Positions 28,510-36,614 of a stretch of 64,000 nt of DNA are shown here, in pieces. A program made the translations under genes and the position numbers. The stretch is taken from the NCBI GenBank assembly GCA_022703505.1, contig JAKLDN010000010.1, positions 62,001-126,000 on the forward strand, written 5' to 3'. The notes beneath the pieces were generated by a model that worked only from the letters and a program-made list of their open reading frames with translations, ran no database searches and was not told the DNA's origin. How positions within the stretch are numbered: position 1 is the stretch's first letter; each line of letters starts with the position of its first letter. The DNA comes from Spirochaetota bacterium. GTDB lineage: Bacteria > Spirochaetota > Spirochaetia > Treponematales > UBA12059.

Positions 28510-29346
28510 ATGCCCGAACTTCCCGACCTGGTCTACATCGTAGAGCGCCTCCGGCCGGCCCTCCTGGGGCGCCGGATCGTCGATGCCTCGGTGGGCAACC
28601 CGACGGTCCTGCGGATCCTGGTGCCCGGGGATTTCCGGGAACTTCTGGCCGGGGACACCTTCCGGACCCTGGAGCGGCGCGGTCCCTTCCTGCGGTTTTC
28701 CCTGGACAGGCACGACCTGGTGATGCACCTCATGCTGGCGGGCCGGGTCCGGGTTGTCCCGGCCGGGGAGAAGCCCCTGGCGGCCCGACGCTTCGCCCTG
28801 GACCTGGAGGACGGAACCCGCTTCGAGTACGGGGACGAGAAGAACATGGGCAAGGTCTACCTTTGCGAACCCGGCCGCTTCGAGGCGATCCCGGGCTTCC
28901 TGACCCAGGGGGTGGACCTCACGGGCCCGGATTTCGACCGGGAGGTTTTTCACCGGCTGATCGCCAAGGAGCGGCGCCAGGCCCGGGTCTTCCTGATGGA
29001 CCAGACCAAGCTTTCCGCTGTGGGGAACGCCTACGCCGACGAAATCCTCTTCTCCGCCCGCATCCACCCCAAGGCCCCCTGCAGCAGGTTGTCCCCCCAT
29101 GAGAAGGACGCCTTCTACACCGCGATCCGGGAAGTCCTGGCCTGGGGTATCTCGGAGGTGGCCGAAGCGGGGAAGCCCACGGAGGAGAAGGTCCGGGACC
29201 ATATGCGGGTGCGGAACCGGGCGGGCTCGCCCTGCCCGGTGTGCGGAACCACGATCCGCAAGGCCGGGGTCCTGGGCTTCGATTCCTTCTTCTGCCCCGG
29301 ATGCCAGAAGCCCAAGACGGAGCAGTTCATAGACTGGAGTCGGTGA
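28510..29346 (+). CDS. Fpg/Nei-family DNA glycosylase-like protein
   Basis: A 278-residue protein starting MPELPD, with the catalytic Pro2 and Glu3 of Fpg/Nei enzymes. The helix-two-turn-helix is present (SAVGNAYADEILFSARIHP) and so is a C-terminal zinc finger (CPVCG and CPGCQ). Differences from classical MutM: Glu6 is Asp, the 8-oxoguanine-contacting lysine region reads ERRGPFLRF, and the RRFG void-filling loop reads KNMGKVY. It probably excises damaged bases but the preferred lesion may differ. The stop codon is the TGA of a GTGAAT repeat unit. Confidence 0.87.
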   Translation: MPELPDLVYIVERLRPALLGRRIVDASVGNPTVLRILVPGDFRELLAGDTFRTLERRGPFLRFSLDRHDLVMHLMLAGRVRVVPAGEKPLAARRFALDLEDGTRFEYGDEKNMGKVYLCEPGRFEAIPGFLTQGVDLTGPDFDREVFHRLIAKERRQARVFLMDQTKLSAVGNAYADEILFSARIHPKAPCSRLSPHEKDAFYTAIREVLAWGISEVAEAGKPTEEKVRDHMRVRNRAGSPCPVCGTTIRKAGVLGFDSFFCPGCQKPKTEQFIDWSR

Positions 29347-29454
29347 ATAGGTGAATGGGTGAATGGGTGAATGGGAGAATGGGAGAATGGGAGAATGGGA
29401 GAATGGCGCAACTTTTCCTCCCTTATTCACCAATTTACTCATTCACCTATTCAC
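29343..29454. repeat. GTGAAT-type intergenic repeat, copy 3
   Basis: Four units GTGAAT(A/G)GG are followed by four identical AGAATGGG units, then ~25 bases, then complementary TTATTCACC, TTTACTC, ATTCACCT and ATTCAC. It provides the stop codon of the preceding gene and ends five bases before the -35 box of the methionine operon promoter. Confidence 0.75.
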
Positions 29455-29458
29455 TATC

Positions 29459-29487
29459 TTGTACTTATTTACAGAAACCGTTATAGT
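29459..29487 (+). promoter_or_regulatory. Promoter of the methionine operon
   Basis: TTGTAC (29459-29464), a 17-base spacer, TATAGT (29482-29487). Transcription should start near 29494, giving a leader of about 380 bases before the first structural gene at 29875. Confidence 0.72.
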
Positions 29488-29560
29488 CTGCCTGTCCGAG
29501 GCTTTCAAAGGATGAAACGGCCGCCGCGCCGTTCCTGTCCCGCTTCGGAGGGAGGTTCCC

Positions 29561-29659
29561 GTGACCCGAACGCAGAGCCCCGCCGGCCGCTCCTCCTCCT
29601 ACACCCTCCTCCGCTTCCGCTCCATGCGCCCCGCCTTCCTCCCCGGCATGATGATGTGA
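29561..29659 (+). CDS. Putative methionine leader peptide ending Met-Met-Met
   Basis: A 32-codon frame with a GTG start four bases after GGAGGGAGGTT and codons 30-32 all ATG directly before TGA. A further Met is codon 22. Peptides with a run of the end-product amino acid at their C-terminus are the mark of ribosome-stalling attenuators (trp, his, leu). It lies in the 380-base leader of an operon that makes homocysteine and methionine. Two mutually exclusive hairpins begin at its stop codon. The peptide itself has no other recognisable feature. A second small frame (29512-29676, ATG start) overlaps it in another phase but has no ribosome binding site. Confidence 0.65.
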   Translation: MTRTQSPAGRSSSYTLLRFRSMRPAFLPGMMM

Positions 29660-29724
29660 CGCCCCGGGCGTCCTAGGACTGAAGCGGTTCCGACCCGTCG
29701 ACGCGGGAAGGGACGACGCCCGGG
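29658..29724 (+). promoter_or_regulatory. Candidate attenuator with two alternative hairpins
   Basis: Hairpin A: GACGCC (29658-29663) with GGCGTC (29667-29672), three-base loop, overlapping the TGA of the leader peptide. Hairpin B: CCCGGGCGTC (29663-29672) with GACGCCCGGG (29715-29724), a perfect 10-bp stem. The strands overlap, so only one can form. A ribosome paused on the Met codons would cover the left arm of A and leave B free. No T-run follows either, so control may act through translation or through further structure nearer 29875, where GTCGGGGC (29811-29818) and GCCCCGAC (29839-29846) can also pair. Confidence 0.55.
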
Positions 29725-29874
29725 CAGTTACAACCGAACATCACCGTCGAACACAACCGGCTTCCGGGCGGAATTCCGCCGGTCGCCGCATTTCGCCGCC
29801 CGCCGTCCCGTCGGGGCGCGCCGCCGTATCCGGCCGCCGCCCCGACCCGTGCGGGGGGCCCTGGGGAGTTTCGT

Positions 29875-31341
29875 ATGCGGACCAAGACCTACGAAGAGAT
29901 AAACGAGAAGCTAGCCCGAGGCGATGCCGTGGTCCTGACGGCCATGGAGTTCAAGGACCTCGCCCGGGACCTGGATCCCGCCGAACTCGTTCGGGAGGTG
30001 GACGTCGTGACCACCGCCACCTTCGCCCCCATGTGTTCCAGCGGGGTCTTCCTGAACTTCGGGCACTCGGACCCGCCCATCCGGATGGAGGAGATTTCCC
30101 TGAACGGGGTGCCCGCCTACGAAGGCCTGGCCGCCGTGGACGCCTACCTGGGGGCCACGGCCGAGGATCCGGAGGACCCGGGGTACGGGGGCGCCCACGT
30201 CATCGAGGCCCTGGTGCGGGGAGAGGAAGTCCGGCTCTCCGCCCGGGGCAAGGGCACGGACTGCTACCCTCGCACCAGTATGGAGACCTCCGTCTCCCTG
30301 GACCGCTTGAACGAGGCCTGGTTCTTCAATCCCCGGAACGGGTACCAGAACTACGGGGCCGCGGTCAACGGCTCCGGCCGGCCGTTGCGCACCTACATGG
30401 GGCTCCTGGAGCCGGATTACGGGAGCGTCTCGTACTCCACCTCCGGGGAGCTCTCGCCCCTGCTGAACGATCCCGAGTGCCGGACCGTGGGGACGGGCAC
30501 CCCGGTTTTCCTCTGCGGGGCCCGGGGGAGGGTGACGGGGCCGGGCACCCAGTACTGCGACCGGCGGGAGGCGGGGCGGTCCGGCCTCCCCGTGGCCGGG
30601 GCCCGGACCTTGGCCCTCTGGGCGGACCTCAAGGAGGCCGAACCCGAGTTCCTGGCCGCCGCCCGCTACGACGGCTACGGGATCAGCCTCTTCGTGGGGC
30701 TGGGCCTGCCCGTCCCGGTCCTGGACGAAGACCTGGCCCGCCGCCTGTCCGTGCGGGACGGGGACATCGAGACCGAGGTCCGGGACTATTCCCGGCCCGG
30801 CCGGCCCGTGACGGGACGCTGCACCTACGCGGAGTTGCGGTCGGGGTCCGTGGAGCTGGCCGGCCGACGGGTTCGGACCTCCAGCCAGTCGAGCCTGGCC
30901 AAGGCCCGGCGCATCGCGGAGGTCCTGAGGGAAAGGGTCCTGGAGGGTCGCTTCCCCCTGGAAGCCCCCCGGGAGCCGCTTCCGGAAGGCCGGACTCCCC
31001 GGGGCCTCGCGGAGCGGGCCTTCGTGTCGATCCCGGGGTCGGCGGAATCCACGGCCGGGGATCCCGGGGTCGGAGGTGCGGGGTACCGCCGGGATCTATG
31101 CGTGGACTGCGGGTCCTGCGCGGCCCATTGCCCCCGGGGCGCCTTGGCCATCGGGGCGCCGGAGTGGAGGCTCCGGTACGTGACCGGCCTGTGCGACGGC
31201 TGCGGGGCCTGCTTCGGCGCCTGTCCCCGGAAGGCCCTGGGCGCCGGGAAGGCAGCGGCGGCGGCCGGTTCCATATCCGGGCGAACGGCGGAGGGACGCG
31301 CCGGGTCCTCGAACAAGAGGATCATCCGTGTACCAGCCTAG
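29875..31341 (+). CDS. Homocysteine-forming DUF39 protein fused to ferredoxin (aspartate-semialdehyde sulfurtransferase type)
   Basis: A 488-residue protein. Residues ~1-375 are the HcyBio (DUF39, COG1900) domain, with Cys54 in FAPMCSSG and Cys130 in GTDCYPRT at the positions of the two cysteines studied in Methanosarcina MA1821. Residues ~400-460 hold two 4Fe-4S motifs (CVDCGSCAAHCP and CDGCGACFGACP). In methanogens the DUF39 protein and a separate NIL-ferredoxin partner convert aspartate semialdehyde and sulfide to homocysteine; here the ferredoxin is fused and the NIL domain is absent. The ATG follows GGGGAG. It is the first gene of an operon with UPF0280, MetF and MetH. Confidence 0.85.
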   Translation: MRTKTYEEINEKLARGDAVVLTAMEFKDLARDLDPAELVREVDVVTTATFAPMCSSGVFLNFGHSDPPIRMEEISLNGVPAYEGLAAVDAYLGATAEDPEDPGYGGAHVIEALVRGEEVRLSARGKGTDCYPRTSMETSVSLDRLNEAWFFNPRNGYQNYGAAVNGSGRPLRTYMGLLEPDYGSVSYSTSGELSPLLNDPECRTVGTGTPVFLCGARGRVTGPGTQYCDRREAGRSGLPVAGARTLALWADLKEAEPEFLAAARYDGYGISLFVGLGLPVPVLDEDLARRLSVRDGDIETEVRDYSRPGRPVTGRCTYAELRSGSVELAGRRVRTSSQSSLAKARRIAEVLRERVLEGRFPLEAPREPLPEGRTPRGLAERAFVSIPGSAESTAGDPGVGGAGYRRDLCVDCGSCAAHCPRGALAIGAPEWRLRYVTGLCDGCGACFGACPRKALGAGKAAAAAGSISGRTAEGRAGSSNKRIIRVPA

Positions 31342-32185
31342 GACCTACCGCGCCCTGGCGGCGGCGGAACGATTCGCGTACTTTCCCGTGCGGTACCGGG
31401 AGACGGACCTCTGGATCGGGGTGGACCGCCCCTCCTTTCGGTCCTCCCTGGGTCAGGACGTGCTGGAGCGGGTGATCGATCTTCGGCTCCGGCTGGAGTC
31501 CTATATCGAGCGCCGTCCGGAATTCCGGTCCTCCTTCGAACCGATCCCGGATGACCCGGGGGCCCCCGCGATCGCGTCTGCCATGCTCCGCGCCGCCCGG
31601 GAAGCCGGGGTGGGGCCCATGGCCGCCGTGGCCGGGGCCTTCGCGGACGCGGCGGCCCGCTTCCTCCTGGGCCCCGGCCGGTGCCGGGAGCTTGTCGTGG
31701 AGAACGGGGGGGACATCGCCCTGTCCGGGGAATCGGAGTTCACCGCGGCCCTGCTGGCGGGAACCTCGTCCCTGTCGGGTGCCTTGGGCCTCAGGATCCG
31801 GGGCGGCGGGTACCGGGGGCTGGCCGCCAGCGCGGGCCGGGTGGGACCCTCCTACAGCGCCGGACGTGCGGACGCCTGCGCGGTCCTGGCCCGGGACGCG
31901 GCCCGGGCGGACGCCCTGGCCACGGCCTTCGGGAACCGTGTAGGATCCGGGGCGGACATCGAGGGTGTGCTGGACCTGGCCCGGCGTACCGATGGCGTCC
32001 TGGGGATCGCCCTGATCGCGGGCTCCACCTTCGGGTGCGCGGGAGACCTGGAGCTGGTCCCTTTGGCTGCGGGCCGGGGCCGGGCCTGTAAATCTCCCAA
32101 GGGCGGGCCGGATTCGGAGACTAGACGGCGGTCGGATCCGGCGGCGCCGGAGACGCGGACGGTCCGGGCGGGGAGGCTTCCATGA
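31328..32185 (+). CDS. UPF0280 family protein
   Basis: A 285-residue protein of the UPF0280 (COG2122) family, distantly ApbE-like: FSPxxYR-type start, GPMAAVAGAFADAAARFLL, VVENGGDIALSG, and SAGRVGPSYSAGRADACAVLA with ADALATAFGN. Homologues (such as MA1715) accompany DUF39 proteins and have been linked to homocysteine formation; the chemistry is not settled. GTG start, overlapping the preceding gene by 14 bases. The C-terminal ~35 residues are low-complexity and probably disordered. Confidence 0.82.
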   Translation: MYQPRTYRALAAAERFAYFPVRYRETDLWIGVDRPSFRSSLGQDVLERVIDLRLRLESYIERRPEFRSSFEPIPDDPGAPAIASAMLRAAREAGVGPMAAVAGAFADAAARFLLGPGRCRELVVENGGDIALSGESEFTAALLAGTSSLSGALGLRIRGGGYRGLAASAGRVGPSYSAGRADACAVLARDAARADALATAFGNRVGSGADIEGVLDLARRTDGVLGIALIAGSTFGCAGDLELVPLAAGRGRACKSPKGGPDSETRRRSDPAAPETRTVRAGRLP

Positions 32186-33210
32186 ACGATACGAACGCGG
32201 CCGTGCCGCTTGCCGACGGGATCTTCTCCATCGAGGTGGTCCCTCCCGCCCGGGGGGCGGGCCTGGAGGACCTCTTCGCGGCGGTGGAGACCCTCCTTCC
32301 CTACGGGCCCTCCAAGGTGAGCGTCACCGACCACCCCGCGGGTCCCCCGGACGGGGCGCCCCTGCCCGGGGGAGGCTTCGCCCGCTCCGGTCCCCGGTCC
32401 AAGCCCGGCACCCTGGGCACGGCCCTGGCCCTCCAGTCGGCCTTCCGGGTGCGAGCCGTACCCCACCTGGTATCCCGGGGAGCAGACCGCTACGCCATGG
32501 AGGACCTCCTCATCGACCTGCACTACGCGGGGTTCCGGGAACTCTTCGTGGTCCGGGGGGACGATCGTTTCCACCGGGATCCCGGGGACGCCGGCGCGGG
32601 GCCGGAATCCCCGGTCCGGGGATATTCCAGCGCCGCGGACTTGGTGGCCCATGTAGCCGCCCTCAACCGGGGCGAGTACCTCCCCCCCGCTGAGCCTGGA
32701 AAACCCACGGACTTCCGGGTCGGGGTGGCGGGGTACCCGGAAAAGCACTTCGCCGCGCCCAACAAGGAGGCGGACCTCCGGAAGCTCAAGGAGAAGGTGG
32801 ACGCCGGGGCTTCCTACATCGTCACCCAGATGGTCTTCGATGCCCGACGGTACTTCGAGTTCGTCGCCGCCCTCCGGGGGGCCGGGATCGCGGTGCCCGT
32901 GATCCCCGGGATCAAACCCCTGACCCGGGCATCCCAGGCCGCCGCTGTGCCCCGGAACTTCTTCGTGGACCTCCCCGATAGCCTGCTCCGATCCCTGGAG
33001 GGAGCCCGAACTCCGGAGGAGGAGCGGAGCGTGGGGATCCGGGCCGCGGCGCGCCTGGCGGAGGACCTCCTTTCGGGCGGGGCCCCGGCCCTGCACTTCT
33101 TCACCATGGGCCGGGGCGGCGCCACACGGGACGTCCTGGACGCGGTCTTCGGGGGGCCGGAGGGGGCCCGGATCCGCGGCGCGGCCGGGTTCGGGGGAAA
33201 CATCCAATGA
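32182..33210 (+). CDS. metF: Methylenetetrahydrofolate reductase
   Basis: A 342-residue FAD enzyme. FSIEVVPP carries the catalytic glutamate, LFVVRGDD the FAD-binding aspartate, VGVAGYPEKH the folate-site segment, and YIVTQMVFD the conserved Gln; PVIPGIKPL is also typical. It reduces 5,10-methylene- to 5-methyl-tetrahydrofolate, the methyl donor for the next gene. ATGA overlaps on both sides show translational coupling within the operon. Slightly longer than E. coli MetF (296), with insertions rich in Gly and Pro after residue 60. Confidence 0.92.
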   Translation: MNDTNAAVPLADGIFSIEVVPPARGAGLEDLFAAVETLLPYGPSKVSVTDHPAGPPDGAPLPGGGFARSGPRSKPGTLGTALALQSAFRVRAVPHLVSRGADRYAMEDLLIDLHYAGFRELFVVRGDDRFHRDPGDAGAGPESPVRGYSSAADLVAHVAALNRGEYLPPAEPGKPTDFRVGVAGYPEKHFAAPNKEADLRKLKEKVDAGASYIVTQMVFDARRYFEFVAALRGAGIAVPVIPGIKPLTRASQAAAVPRNFFVDLPDSLLRSLEGARTPEEERSVGIRAAARLAEDLLSGGAPALHFFTMGRGGATRDVLDAVFGGPEGARIRGAAGFGGNIQ

Positions 33211-36200
33211 GCGGAGGAAATCGAGCTTCGGACCGGGATATCCGGACGGTCTTCGGGAACCGCCTCCTCTTGGCGGACGGCTCCACGGGCACGGCCCTGG
33301 AGGAGTTGGCGCCCGGGCGTTCCGCGACCTTCCTGCCCCTGGAGGCCCCCGAAATCGTGGAGGAACTCCACCGGGCCTACTTCGACGCGGGCTCCGACCT
33401 CGTGGAGACCGCCACCTTCGGCGCCAACGAGCGGGCCCTGGCCAAGGCCGGTGCCCCGGGCGCGGCCCGGGAGCTGAACCGGGCCGCCTGCGAGGCCGCG
33501 GTGCGGGCCGCCCGTCGGGCCGAGGAGGCCGACGGCCGCCCCCGCTGGGTGGCGGGTTCCGTGGGCCCCGGGGAGGACCCTCCCAGCCTGGGGGCCTCGA
33601 CCTATGCCGAACTGGTGGAGTCCTACCGGCCCCAGATGGCCGGCCTCCTGGAAGGCGGGGCGGACCTGGTCTTCATCGAGACCTGCCAGGACCCCCTGCA
33701 GGTCAAGGCCGCCCTGGGGGCCCTCTTCGACGCCCGGGCCGAGGTCGGCCGGGAGGTCCCCTTCATCGTCTCCGCCACCGTGGACGCTTCCGGCCGGATG
33801 CTGACCGGCACGGGCATGGAGGCCCTGGCCGCCATCGTCGCTCCTTTCCGCCCCCTGGCCCTGGGCCTCAACTGCTCCGGGGGACCCGCGGAGCTCGCGG
33901 CCGCCCTGGAAGCCCTGGCCCGGGCCTCCCCCGCGCCCCTTTCCCTGATGCCCAACGCGGGCTTTCCCCGCCTCGAAGCGGGGCGGGCCGTCTACCCCAT
34001 GGGCCCCGGGGACTTCGCCCGGGAGACGGCCGCTCTGGCCCGAAGGTTCGGCGTATCCCTGGCCGGTGGCTGCTGCGGTACGGGACCGGCCCACATCCGG
34101 GCCCTGGCGGGACTCCTCGCGGACCGGCCCCGGCCCTCCCCGCGCCCGGCCCGGAAGCCCGGCCTGGCCTCGCTGTACCAGGCCTGGCCGCCGGAATCCG
34201 GCGGCGTCTCGAAGGCGGCGGATGCGTCCCCGGCCGCCTTCCTGCGGGTCGGCGAAAAGGCCAACGCCGCGGGCTCCGCGGCCTTCGCCAAGCGGGTCCT
34301 GGCCGGGGACGTGGAGGGCCAGGCCGCCCTCGCCCTGGCCCAGGAGGAGTCGGGGGCCCATGCCCTGGACCTCCATCTGTCCCGACCCGGCCGGGACGAG
34401 GCCGCGGACCTCGCGGCCCTGACCGGGCGCCTGGCGGGGACCGCCCGGGCGGCCCTGTCCCTGGATTCCCCGGACCCCGAGGTCCTGGCCGCGGCCCTGC
34501 CCCTTGTCGGGGGGCGGCCCCTCCTGAACTCCGCCAACCTGGAGGATGAAGCCAAGGCCCGCCGGGTCTTCCGCCTGGCCCGGCGCTTCGGGGCGGCCGT
34601 AGTCTGTCTGGCCCTGGACGGCGGGGGTCCCGCCCGGGACACGGCGGGAAAGGTACGGATCTGCCGGGCCCTCCACGACCTCGCCCTGGAGGAGGGACTG
34701 GCGCCGGAGGACCTCTACTTCGACTGCCTGACCTTCTCCCTGGCCTCCGAGTCCGGGGGCTTCGAGGGGGCCGCGGCCCGGACCCTGGAGGCGATCCCCC
34801 GGGTGAAGGAAGCCTGTCCCGGTTCCTCGACGATCCTGGGGGTGGGGAACTGCTCCTTCGGACTGCCGCGGCCCCTCCGTCCCCCGGTAACCGCGGTCTT
34901 CCTGGAAGCGGCCCGGGCGGCCGGCCTGGACGCGGCCATCCTGGACCCGGGACTTCCGGACCCGGAAACCGTGGACGTCGGGATCCGCTCCGCCGTCCGG
35001 ACCCTGATCGGCGGGGAGGCGGGCGTCGAAGCCCGGGCCGCCGCCCTGGACTCCCTCCTGGCGCGGGCACCCGGGGCCGCCGAGGCCGCCGCGCAGGACA
35101 CCCCCGGGGCAGCCCCGGAGGATCGCCTGAGGGCGGCCATACTGCGCGGCGAGGCCGGGGCCGCGGCGCGGGCGGCCCGGGAGGCCGCCGGGCATCCCCC
35201 GGTCACCTCCCTCGTGGCCTCCGCCATGTCCGAGGTTGGGGCCCGGTTCTCCGCGGGGGATCTGCCCCTGCCCCGGGTCCTCCGGAGCGCCGAGGCGGCC
35301 CAGGCGGCCCTCGGGGAGCTGACCCCGGGGTCGGAGGTCCAGGGCCTCGGCCGGGGCACCGTGGTGATGGCCACCGTGAAGGGGGACCTTCACGACATCG
35401 GCAAGAACCTGACCGGCCTGATCCTGGGGGGTTCGGGGTACCGGGTCGTGGACCTGGGCACCGACGTCGGGATCGAGCGACTCCTGGCCGCGGTAGGGAA
35501 GGAGGGGGCCGCCGCCCTGGGGCTGTCCGGACTCCTGACCCGGAGCCTGGAGGAAATGCGGAAGGCCGCCCGGGCTCTCGGGGATTCGGGATCGGAAGCC
35601 CTCCTTCTCCTGGGAGGGGCCGCCGTGGACCCCCGCTTCGTGGAAGCCGAGCTGGCTCCCCTGCACCCCGGTCGGGTCCGGGCCTGCGCGGACGCCTTCG
35701 AGGCCCTGCGCGTCCTGGCCAAGGACCGGGAGCCGGGGGCGTCGGATCCCGCGACCGGACCCGCCACGAGACCCGCTGCCGCCGCGCCCGCGGCCGAAGC
35801 CTCGGGAGCGCCGTCCGATGCCGGCCCAGCCCTGCCCGGGGCACCCGCCCCGGACGGACGGAAACGGTCCCGGATTCCGGGCCTCCCGCCGACCCCCCCC
35901 TGGACTCCGCCCTTCCGGGGCTCCCGACCGGCGGACGGGCTTTCCCCGGAGGAGCTCTTCGCGGCCCTGGACCGGAAAACCCTGCTCCAGGTCCGCTGGG
36001 GCTTCGGCCGGCGCGGAAGGGAGGAGGCGGAGGAGTCCTTCGAGCGGATCTCCGGCCTCGCCCGGTCCCGGGGGCTTTGCCGGGCCGCCGGGGTATACGG
36101 CTACTTTTCCTGCGAGCACCGGGGGGGCGGGCTTCTCCGGGTGGACGACGGCCGGGGAGGCGCCCGGGAGTTCCGGTTCCCCGGAGCGGGCGGCCCGGGG

Positions 36201-36614
36201 GGCCCTACGATCGCCGCGTACTTCGACGGGGAGGGTTCCGTCATCCCCTTCTTCGCGGTGACCGCGGGGCCGGAGCTTTCCCGGGCCGCCGCGGAACTGA
36301 GGGCTTCGGGGGACCCGCGGGAGTACTTCCTCCTGCACGGCCTTGCCGCAGCCCTGGCGGAGGCCGCCGCGGAGGTCCTCCACCGGCGGATCGGCCGGGA
36401 GCTCGAGGCGGCCGGGGCCGGTACGGCGGGGAGGCGCTACTCCTTCGGCTTTCCCGGCTGCCCGGGGGTGGAGTTCCAGGGGGAGCTCCTGGGTCTCCTG
36501 GGGGCGGCCCGGGTCGGGATCGGGGTTACGGAGGGGCACCAGCTGACCCCGGAGTTCTCCGTAACCGCCTTCGTGGTGCCCCGGCCGGACGCGGAGTACT
36601 TCTCCCCGCCGTAG
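33207..36614 (+). CDS. metH: Cobalamin-dependent methionine synthase
   Basis: A 1135-residue enzyme with the full MetH domain order. Homocysteine-binding barrel (~1-315, zinc Cys in LNCSGG and GGCCGTGP); folate barrel (~325-600, KANAAGSAAFAK and GVGNCSFGLP); B12 cap and Rossmann domain (~630-850, with the axial histidine in VKGDLHDIGKN); and an AdoMet reactivation domain (~900-1135, YGYFSC, GFPGCPGVEFQ and VTEGHQLTPEFSVTAF). It methylates homocysteine from 5-methyl-THF. A Pro/Ala-rich linker precedes the activation domain. The stop at 36612 overlaps the -35 box of the next promoter. Confidence 0.94.
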   Translation: MSGGNRASDRDIRTVFGNRLLLADGSTGTALEELAPGRSATFLPLEAPEIVEELHRAYFDAGSDLVETATFGANERALAKAGAPGAARELNRAACEAAVRAARRAEEADGRPRWVAGSVGPGEDPPSLGASTYAELVESYRPQMAGLLEGGADLVFIETCQDPLQVKAALGALFDARAEVGREVPFIVSATVDASGRMLTGTGMEALAAIVAPFRPLALGLNCSGGPAELAAALEALARASPAPLSLMPNAGFPRLEAGRAVYPMGPGDFARETAALARRFGVSLAGGCCGTGPAHIRALAGLLADRPRPSPRPARKPGLASLYQAWPPESGGVSKAADASPAAFLRVGEKANAAGSAAFAKRVLAGDVEGQAALALAQEESGAHALDLHLSRPGRDEAADLAALTGRLAGTARAALSLDSPDPEVLAAALPLVGGRPLLNSANLEDEAKARRVFRLARRFGAAVVCLALDGGGPARDTAGKVRICRALHDLALEEGLAPEDLYFDCLTFSLASESGGFEGAAARTLEAIPRVKEACPGSSTILGVGNCSFGLPRPLRPPVTAVFLEAARAAGLDAAILDPGLPDPETVDVGIRSAVRTLIGGEAGVEARAAALDSLLARAPGAAEAAAQDTPGAAPEDRLRAAILRGEAGAAARAAREAAGHPPVTSLVASAMSEVGARFSAGDLPLPRVLRSAEAAQAALGELTPGSEVQGLGRGTVVMATVKGDLHDIGKNLTGLILGGSGYRVVDLGTDVGIERLLAAVGKEGAAALGLSGLLTRSLEEMRKAARALGDSGSEALLLLGGAAVDPRFVEAELAPLHPGRVRACADAFEALRVLAKDREPGASDPATGPATRPAAAAPAAEASGAPSDAGPALPGAPAPDGRKRSRIPGLPPTPPWTPPFRGSRPADGLSPEELFAALDRKTLLQVRWGFGRRGREEAEESFERISGLARSRGLCRAAGVYGYFSCEHRGGGLLRVDDGRGGAREFRFPGAGGPGGPTIAAYFDGEGSVIPFFAVTAGPELSRAAAELRASGDPREYFLLHGLAAALAEAAAEVLHRRIGRELEAAGAGTAGRRYSFGFPGCPGVEFQGELLGLLGAARVGIGVTEGHQLTPEFSVTAFVVPRPDAEYFSPP

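Follow-up and report, generated by a model that had tools for sequence, protein, structure and literature searches.

A conserved leader frame ending in methionine codons suggests ribosome-mediated attenuation of methionine synthesis in spirochaetes

The leader of a methionine operon in a spirochaete, together with the leaders of its relatives, probably acts as a ribosome-mediated attenuator that senses how much methionine is available and in which formation of one long helix, P1, would raise expression of the methionine genes; we assign this reading a probability of about 0.77. Methionine is usually read via SAM riboswitches, Met T-boxes or repressors. The leader lies in a stretch of 64,000 nucleotides (the window, the positions of which are used throughout), for which an original prediction had proposed a ribosome-mediated attenuator layout and a comparison of orthologous leaders. 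We find that a frame ending in methionine and a long stem are conserved among such leaders and that their context is always methionine synthesis, so that a predicted Met-specific leader-peptide attenuator, in the window and in its relatives, is well supported, whereas the short hairpin of the proposed layout, hairpin A, is intact in only part of the loci and is not universal.

The leader and the operon that follows it contain these features:

29459..29487, + strand: promoter candidate TTGTAC-17-TATAGT, read from the sequence; the -10 and its flank are identical in the sister species
29547..29555, + strand: Shine-Dalgarno (SD) sequence of the leader frame, GGAGGGAGG; an SD precedes 13 of the 14 homologous frames
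29561..29659, + strand: leader peptide gene, 32 codons, MTRTQSPAGRSSSYTLLRFRSMRPAFLPGMMM-stop, in UGAC context; the frame is kept in the sister species and the 14 homologous frames end Met-TGAC
29648..29656, + strand: three terminal Met codons, ATG ATG ATG, the proposed sensing site; MMM in 7 of 14 loci
29863..29868, + strand: SD of the first structural gene, read from the sequence
29875..31341, + strand: hcyBio, DUF39 homocysteine biosynthesis enzyme with a ferredoxin domain (PF01837, E 9.7e-129)
31328..32185, + strand: 285-aa frame overlapping hcyBio and metF by a few bases; no Pfam match
32182..33210, + strand: metF, methylenetetrahydrofolate reductase (PF02219, E 7.5e-47)
33207..36614, + strand: metH, cobalamin-dependent methionine synthase (PF02574, PF00809, PF02310, PF02965)

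The operon for homocysteine and methionine named in the original prediction was recovered by the Pfam matches of hcyBio, metF and metH, and the 32-codon frame ending in three ATG codons was found in the sequence as described, from a GTG start at 29561 to a TGA at 29657-29659, with its ribosome binding site in place. The predicted consensus promoter holds up in part: its -10 is good and conserved, with ACAGAAACCGTTATAGTCTGCCTGTCCGAGGCTTTC around it identical in the sister species, but the -35 matches the consensus at only three of six positions and a consensus promoter scan made no call at 29459-29487. Upstream of the leader lie a formamidopyrimidine-DNA glycosylase-like gene and a GTGAATGG repeat hairpin region, in which positions 29343-29454 hold tandem GTGAATGG/GAGAATGG units and a 30-nt inverted copy downstream that is 90% complementary. 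The sister species differs at this repeat, again with GTGAACGG-like units, and the miRNA-like Rfam matches at 29338-29469 were attributed to the repeat hairpin and set aside as leader elements.

A Met codon stands directly before UGAC in 14/14 leader frames, which range from 16 to 51 codons in length; seven of them end in MMM (the window, G002, G003, G007, G071, G022 and G041), four have two Met within the last four codons (G010 MM, G080 MAM, G018 MTM and G101 MTM) and three have a single terminal Met codon (G012, G013 and G016). An in-frame start with an SD, 16-51 codons before the stop, was present in 13 of the 14 leaders, compared with 1.9% of the remaining TGA sites in these loci, G041 being the leader that fails for the start codon chosen, and for this reason we consider the window leader to be more than a chance frame. 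It is presumably translated. Between the window and the sister species, the frame carries no indel and 12 changed codons, two of them synonymous and 10 nonsynonymous, and across the 14 loci the peptide sequence drifts as the frame holds, with the terminal Met as the only conserved residue. The sequence ATGATGATGTGA occurs a single time in the 64-kb window, counting both strands.

All 14 leaders precede genes in or next to methionine synthesis. The first gene is hcyBio in the window, G002 and G022, metF in G010, G012, G013, G016 and G018, and an aspartokinase or aspartokinase-like frame in G003, G007, G041, G101, G080 and G071, where the assignment in the last three is by sequence resemblance and G080 and G071 lack a Pfam match; metH, asd, metA or cysK follow further downstream in several loci. 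In G080 and G071 (L170 and L173) this first gene is 206-215 aa long and aspartokinase-like, and it may be an amino acid kinase that has been truncated or has diverged.

The element is confined, in our searches, to two families of one spirochaete order: family f1, where 10 of 23 genomes have it, and family f4, where 4 of 30 do (kinship labels of the search tool; named records call the organisms Spirochaetes). In the sister species, hcyBio is 87% identical and the block from the stop codon to P1 96% identical. A DNA search of the order gave nine further copies. No leader was found on reading upstream of the distant hcyBio homologues L012, L014, L019 and L030, so the search was instead extended by RNA model and methionine-gene orthology. 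A covariance model from which the Met and stop codons had been left out recovered eleven copies among 394 genomes of the order, including a new one in G012, and every copy was preceded by ATGTGA; the DNA search alone yielded the G010 copy, and the divergent copies in G013 and G101 were found by gene orthology, upstream of methionine genes. There was no additional copy in 296 genomes spread over the phylum, nor outside f1 and f4 in the sample of 394 from the order. TGACGCCCCGGGCGTC also occurs with one mismatch elsewhere in the order; the copies inspected were rejected as coding sequence or as lacking the frame and P1/P3. Within f1, 12 genomes have a metF match and 10 of these carry the element; the other 11 genomes all lack it.

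The RNA around and after the stop codon can form these structures:

29658..29672, + strand (29658-29663/29667-29672): hairpin A, 6 bp, overlapping the stop codon, -9.1 kcal/mol; 10 of the 14 loci keep it intact
29663..29672, + strand: P1 5' strand, CCCGGGCGUC, common to hairpin A; nearly invariant across genera
29715..29724, + strand: P1 3' strand, GACGCCCGGG; P1 cells paired 100% in 10 loci and 96% in 11 loci
29687..29714, + strand (29687-29691/29710-29714 and 29694-29698/29703-29707): P3 hairpin, from the fold; conserved, with compensatory changes in relatives

Both predicted stems, the 6-bp hairpin at the stop codon and the perfect 10-bp alternative hairpin using strand 29663-29672 (P1, 29663-29672/29715-29724), are thus present in the window, where they have one strand in common and would exclude each other; the P3 hairpin, a three-way junction in relatives and the 13 further copies go beyond the original prediction. 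The local fold at 29645-29750 is more stable than shuffled sequences (z -2.95); the window leader as a whole is not (z -0.31). A 10-bp helix occurs at 5.6% of the TGA sites in the window, which makes P1 alone unremarkable, and what makes it noteworthy is its recurrence in 13 of the 14 loci, G010 being the exception without a P1 3' strand. Ten of the 14 loci combine a near-invariant TGACGCCCCGGGCGYC with a 10-bp P1. In these canonical copies the 3' strand varies mainly via G-U-tolerated steps (one position is G-C, G-U or A-U, another U-A, U-G or C-G) and the 5' strand is fixed, as expected for a strand with two partners. P1 is 7 bp in G012, has an altered stem sequence in G013, where P2 is missing as well, and in G101 takes the form of an unrelated 11-bp helix that begins inside the stop codon, with almost all of the core primary sequence lost. 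Hairpin A is reduced in G041, G012 and G013 and absent in G101, so that G013 and G101, whose stem sequences have changed, retain P1 but not an intact hairpin A. P1 is therefore the near-universal part and hairpin A may be secondary to it. Most loci form a P1-P2-P3 three-way junction, in which the P3 core CCGUCGACGCGG is conserved and P2 is variable or, as in the window, the sister species, G013 and G101, absent. Pair-shuffle controls for P1 and P3 are individually weak, with few and very conserved pairs, and the structural argument accordingly rests on recurrence across diverged leaders rather than on covariation statistics. Two further pairings were noted: a pseudoknot CGGUU (29686-29690)/AACCG (29731-29735), which occurs in the window and the sister species, had no equivalent on reading the other leaders and is not claimed, and a complementarity in the G010 metF copy (L168/L175) between the first strand of hairpin A, GACGCCC, and GGGCGTT overlapping the metF start, which may be chance.

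How could the terminal Met codons control P1? A ribosome would translate the short leader frame and, with ample Met-tRNA, would pass the terminal Met codons and pause at the stop codon, where it would cover most of the P1 5' strand; UGAC is a poor terminator in E. coli. With scarce Met-tRNA, the ribosome would stall on the Met codons, leaving P1 free to pair, so that the P1-P3 structure could fold and hairpin A would be blocked. Whether or not hairpin A competes, P1 formation would then increase expression of the methionine genes. We infer the stalling, the direction of the switch and the way in which P1 acts. If the footprint is taken to extend 12 nt past the A-site codon's first base, an assumption from standard toeprint distances, a ribosome whose A site holds the first Met of the terminal cluster leaves 10 of 10 P1 pairs free in nine loci and one with its A site at the stop leaves three, which suggests that stalling on Met lets P1 form and that a ribosome waiting at the stop keeps it from forming.

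Which step P1 would act on is a matter of weaker preferences. The missing U-run of the original prediction was confirmed, as a terminator scan found no terminator-like site with a U-run in the window leader (29300-29900), and reading the other leaders gave no consistent terminator. Because neither a U-run terminator nor conserved SD sequestration was found, Rho-dependent early termination in the leader is our first guess, at somewhat less than even odds, with translation or mRNA stability as alternative outputs. The organism has Rho (TIGR00767, 721.9 bits). The last 60 nt of the leader frames have a mean C content of 0.48 and a mean G content of 0.14, a composition that fits a rut-like Rho site but is not specific evidence for Rho, since the terminator-bearing ilv leader in the same genome is just as G-poor. 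A more particular layout can be suggested only tentatively, and we regard it as rather doubtful: a ribosome terminating at a weak UGAC and one halted on Met, one to four codons before that, would be told apart by whether the ribosome covers the 5' strand of a single long helix beginning at the stop codon, in a layout that has neither its own terminator nor an SD-sequestering hairpin.

In a translational attenuator, the leader frame or a P1 strand would hide the SD of the structural gene and a stalled ribosome would open it. The minimum-energy fold of the window leader does pair CUCCCC of the leader frame with the SD GGGGAG, and the SD opening cost drops by ~3 to 6 kcal in G010, G080, G003 and G018; however, the effect is small in the window, near nil in G022, G016, G013 and G101 and opposite in G007, giving no consistent change in SD accessibility across loci, and the distance from stop to start ranges from 73 to 392 nt. 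We consider this reading unlikely. Less likely still is a classical transcription attenuator, in which hairpin A would compete with P1 and, when P1 is absent, an intrinsic terminator would form downstream. The mutual exclusion of the two stems through a common strand would fit such a switch, and a U-run terminator is present in the genome's ilvN-ilvC-leuA leader, but the scanned window leader has no such site, hairpin A is lost or weakened in G101, G012 and G013, and the P1 3' strand has no conserved partner in the downstream leader (mean z -0.02 against shuffles).

The two remaining readings are very improbable. A metabolite riboswitch for SAM, methionine, SAH or cobalamin, with the P1-P2-P3 junction as aptamer and the frame incidental, would fit the junction in most loci, the P3 core and the downstream methionine genes, but P2 is dispensed with in four loci, the core sequence is almost wholly lost in G101, the frame and its terminal Met are conserved in all loci, and there is no Rfam match: no riboswitch or T-box reached even permissive thresholds, in line with the predicted absence of a SAM-I, SAM-II, SAH or cobalamin core, and no SAM-I riboswitch was found in any of the 23 f1 genomes. 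A nascent-chain arrest at the stop codon that depends on free methionine or SAM, like that of TnaC on tryptophan, would account for the invariant last-codon Met and UGAC (14/14), but no other residue of the peptide is conserved and 10 of 12 codon changes in the sister species are nonsynonymous, which argues against a specific arrest peptide.

The ilv leader mentioned above lies on the minus strand of the same genome (L210, G000:C1:504500-509500), upstream of ilvN-ilvC-leuA. It encodes a 54-aa branched-chain-rich peptide ending in LYILTIIVLLLILGM, with its stop near G000:C1:505693, followed by a GGCCGTCC/GGACGGCC hairpin and then TTCCTTTTT, and looks like a branched-chain attenuator with an intrinsic terminator; the hairpin was not called in a strict terminator scan, probably because of its large loop. 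The lineage thus appears to use such leaders.

Is such an element known for methionine? A search of the open-licence literature, in which absence is not proof, found no description of a methionine-biosynthesis attenuator or of any spirochaete attenuator. This agrees with the original prediction that none is described for methionine in spirochaetes, but a Met leader peptide, metL, has been predicted upstream of metNIQ in Streptomyces lividans TK24 (PMC8079986). Like the spirochaete element, metL is a short frame that contains Met codons and precedes methionine genes, and it is followed by hairpins without a Rho-independent terminator; it differs in being a prediction for one genome, on a leaderless transcript and before import genes, for which neither a terminal run of Met codons nor a conserved structure is reported (PMC8079986). 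A 2005 survey of Actinobacteria described terminator-less leaders of cys and leu genes and reported that methionine operons there showed no conserved RNA structure (PMC1262725). These cys leaders and the LEU element share with the spirochaete leaders a run of codons for the regulated amino acid near the stop and the lack of an obvious terminator, and the LEU element also has conserved alternative structures, but they respond to cysteine or leucine, and the base stem of the LEU element pairs the codon run with the SD (PMC1262725). The ilvB-II motif upstream of ilvB in Corynebacterium is a conserved leader region that proved to involve a translated uORF; it concerns branched-chain amino acids and another phylum (PMC10272879).

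In conclusion, the spirochaete leaders resemble the trp, his and ilv attenuators in combining codons for the product amino acid in a leader frame, hairpins predicted to exclude each other and a biosynthetic operon, but have no intrinsic terminator, place their hairpins on and after the stop codon, and concern methionine. With the Rho-dependent tna and mgtCBR leaders they share a leader peptide, G-poor and C-rich RNA and the lack of an intrinsic terminator, whereas tna senses free Trp during termination rather than uncharged tRNA. The predicted methionine attenuator would thus be a conserved element that is previously undescribed, as far as the literature was searched, built on a kind of switch that is itself known. 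As a leader-peptide sensor of methionine synthesis it would extend ribosome-mediated control to a further amino acid and a further lineage, and its tight overlap of Met codons, a UGAC stop and a terminator-less helix could provide a compact, testable case of attenuation without an intrinsic terminator.
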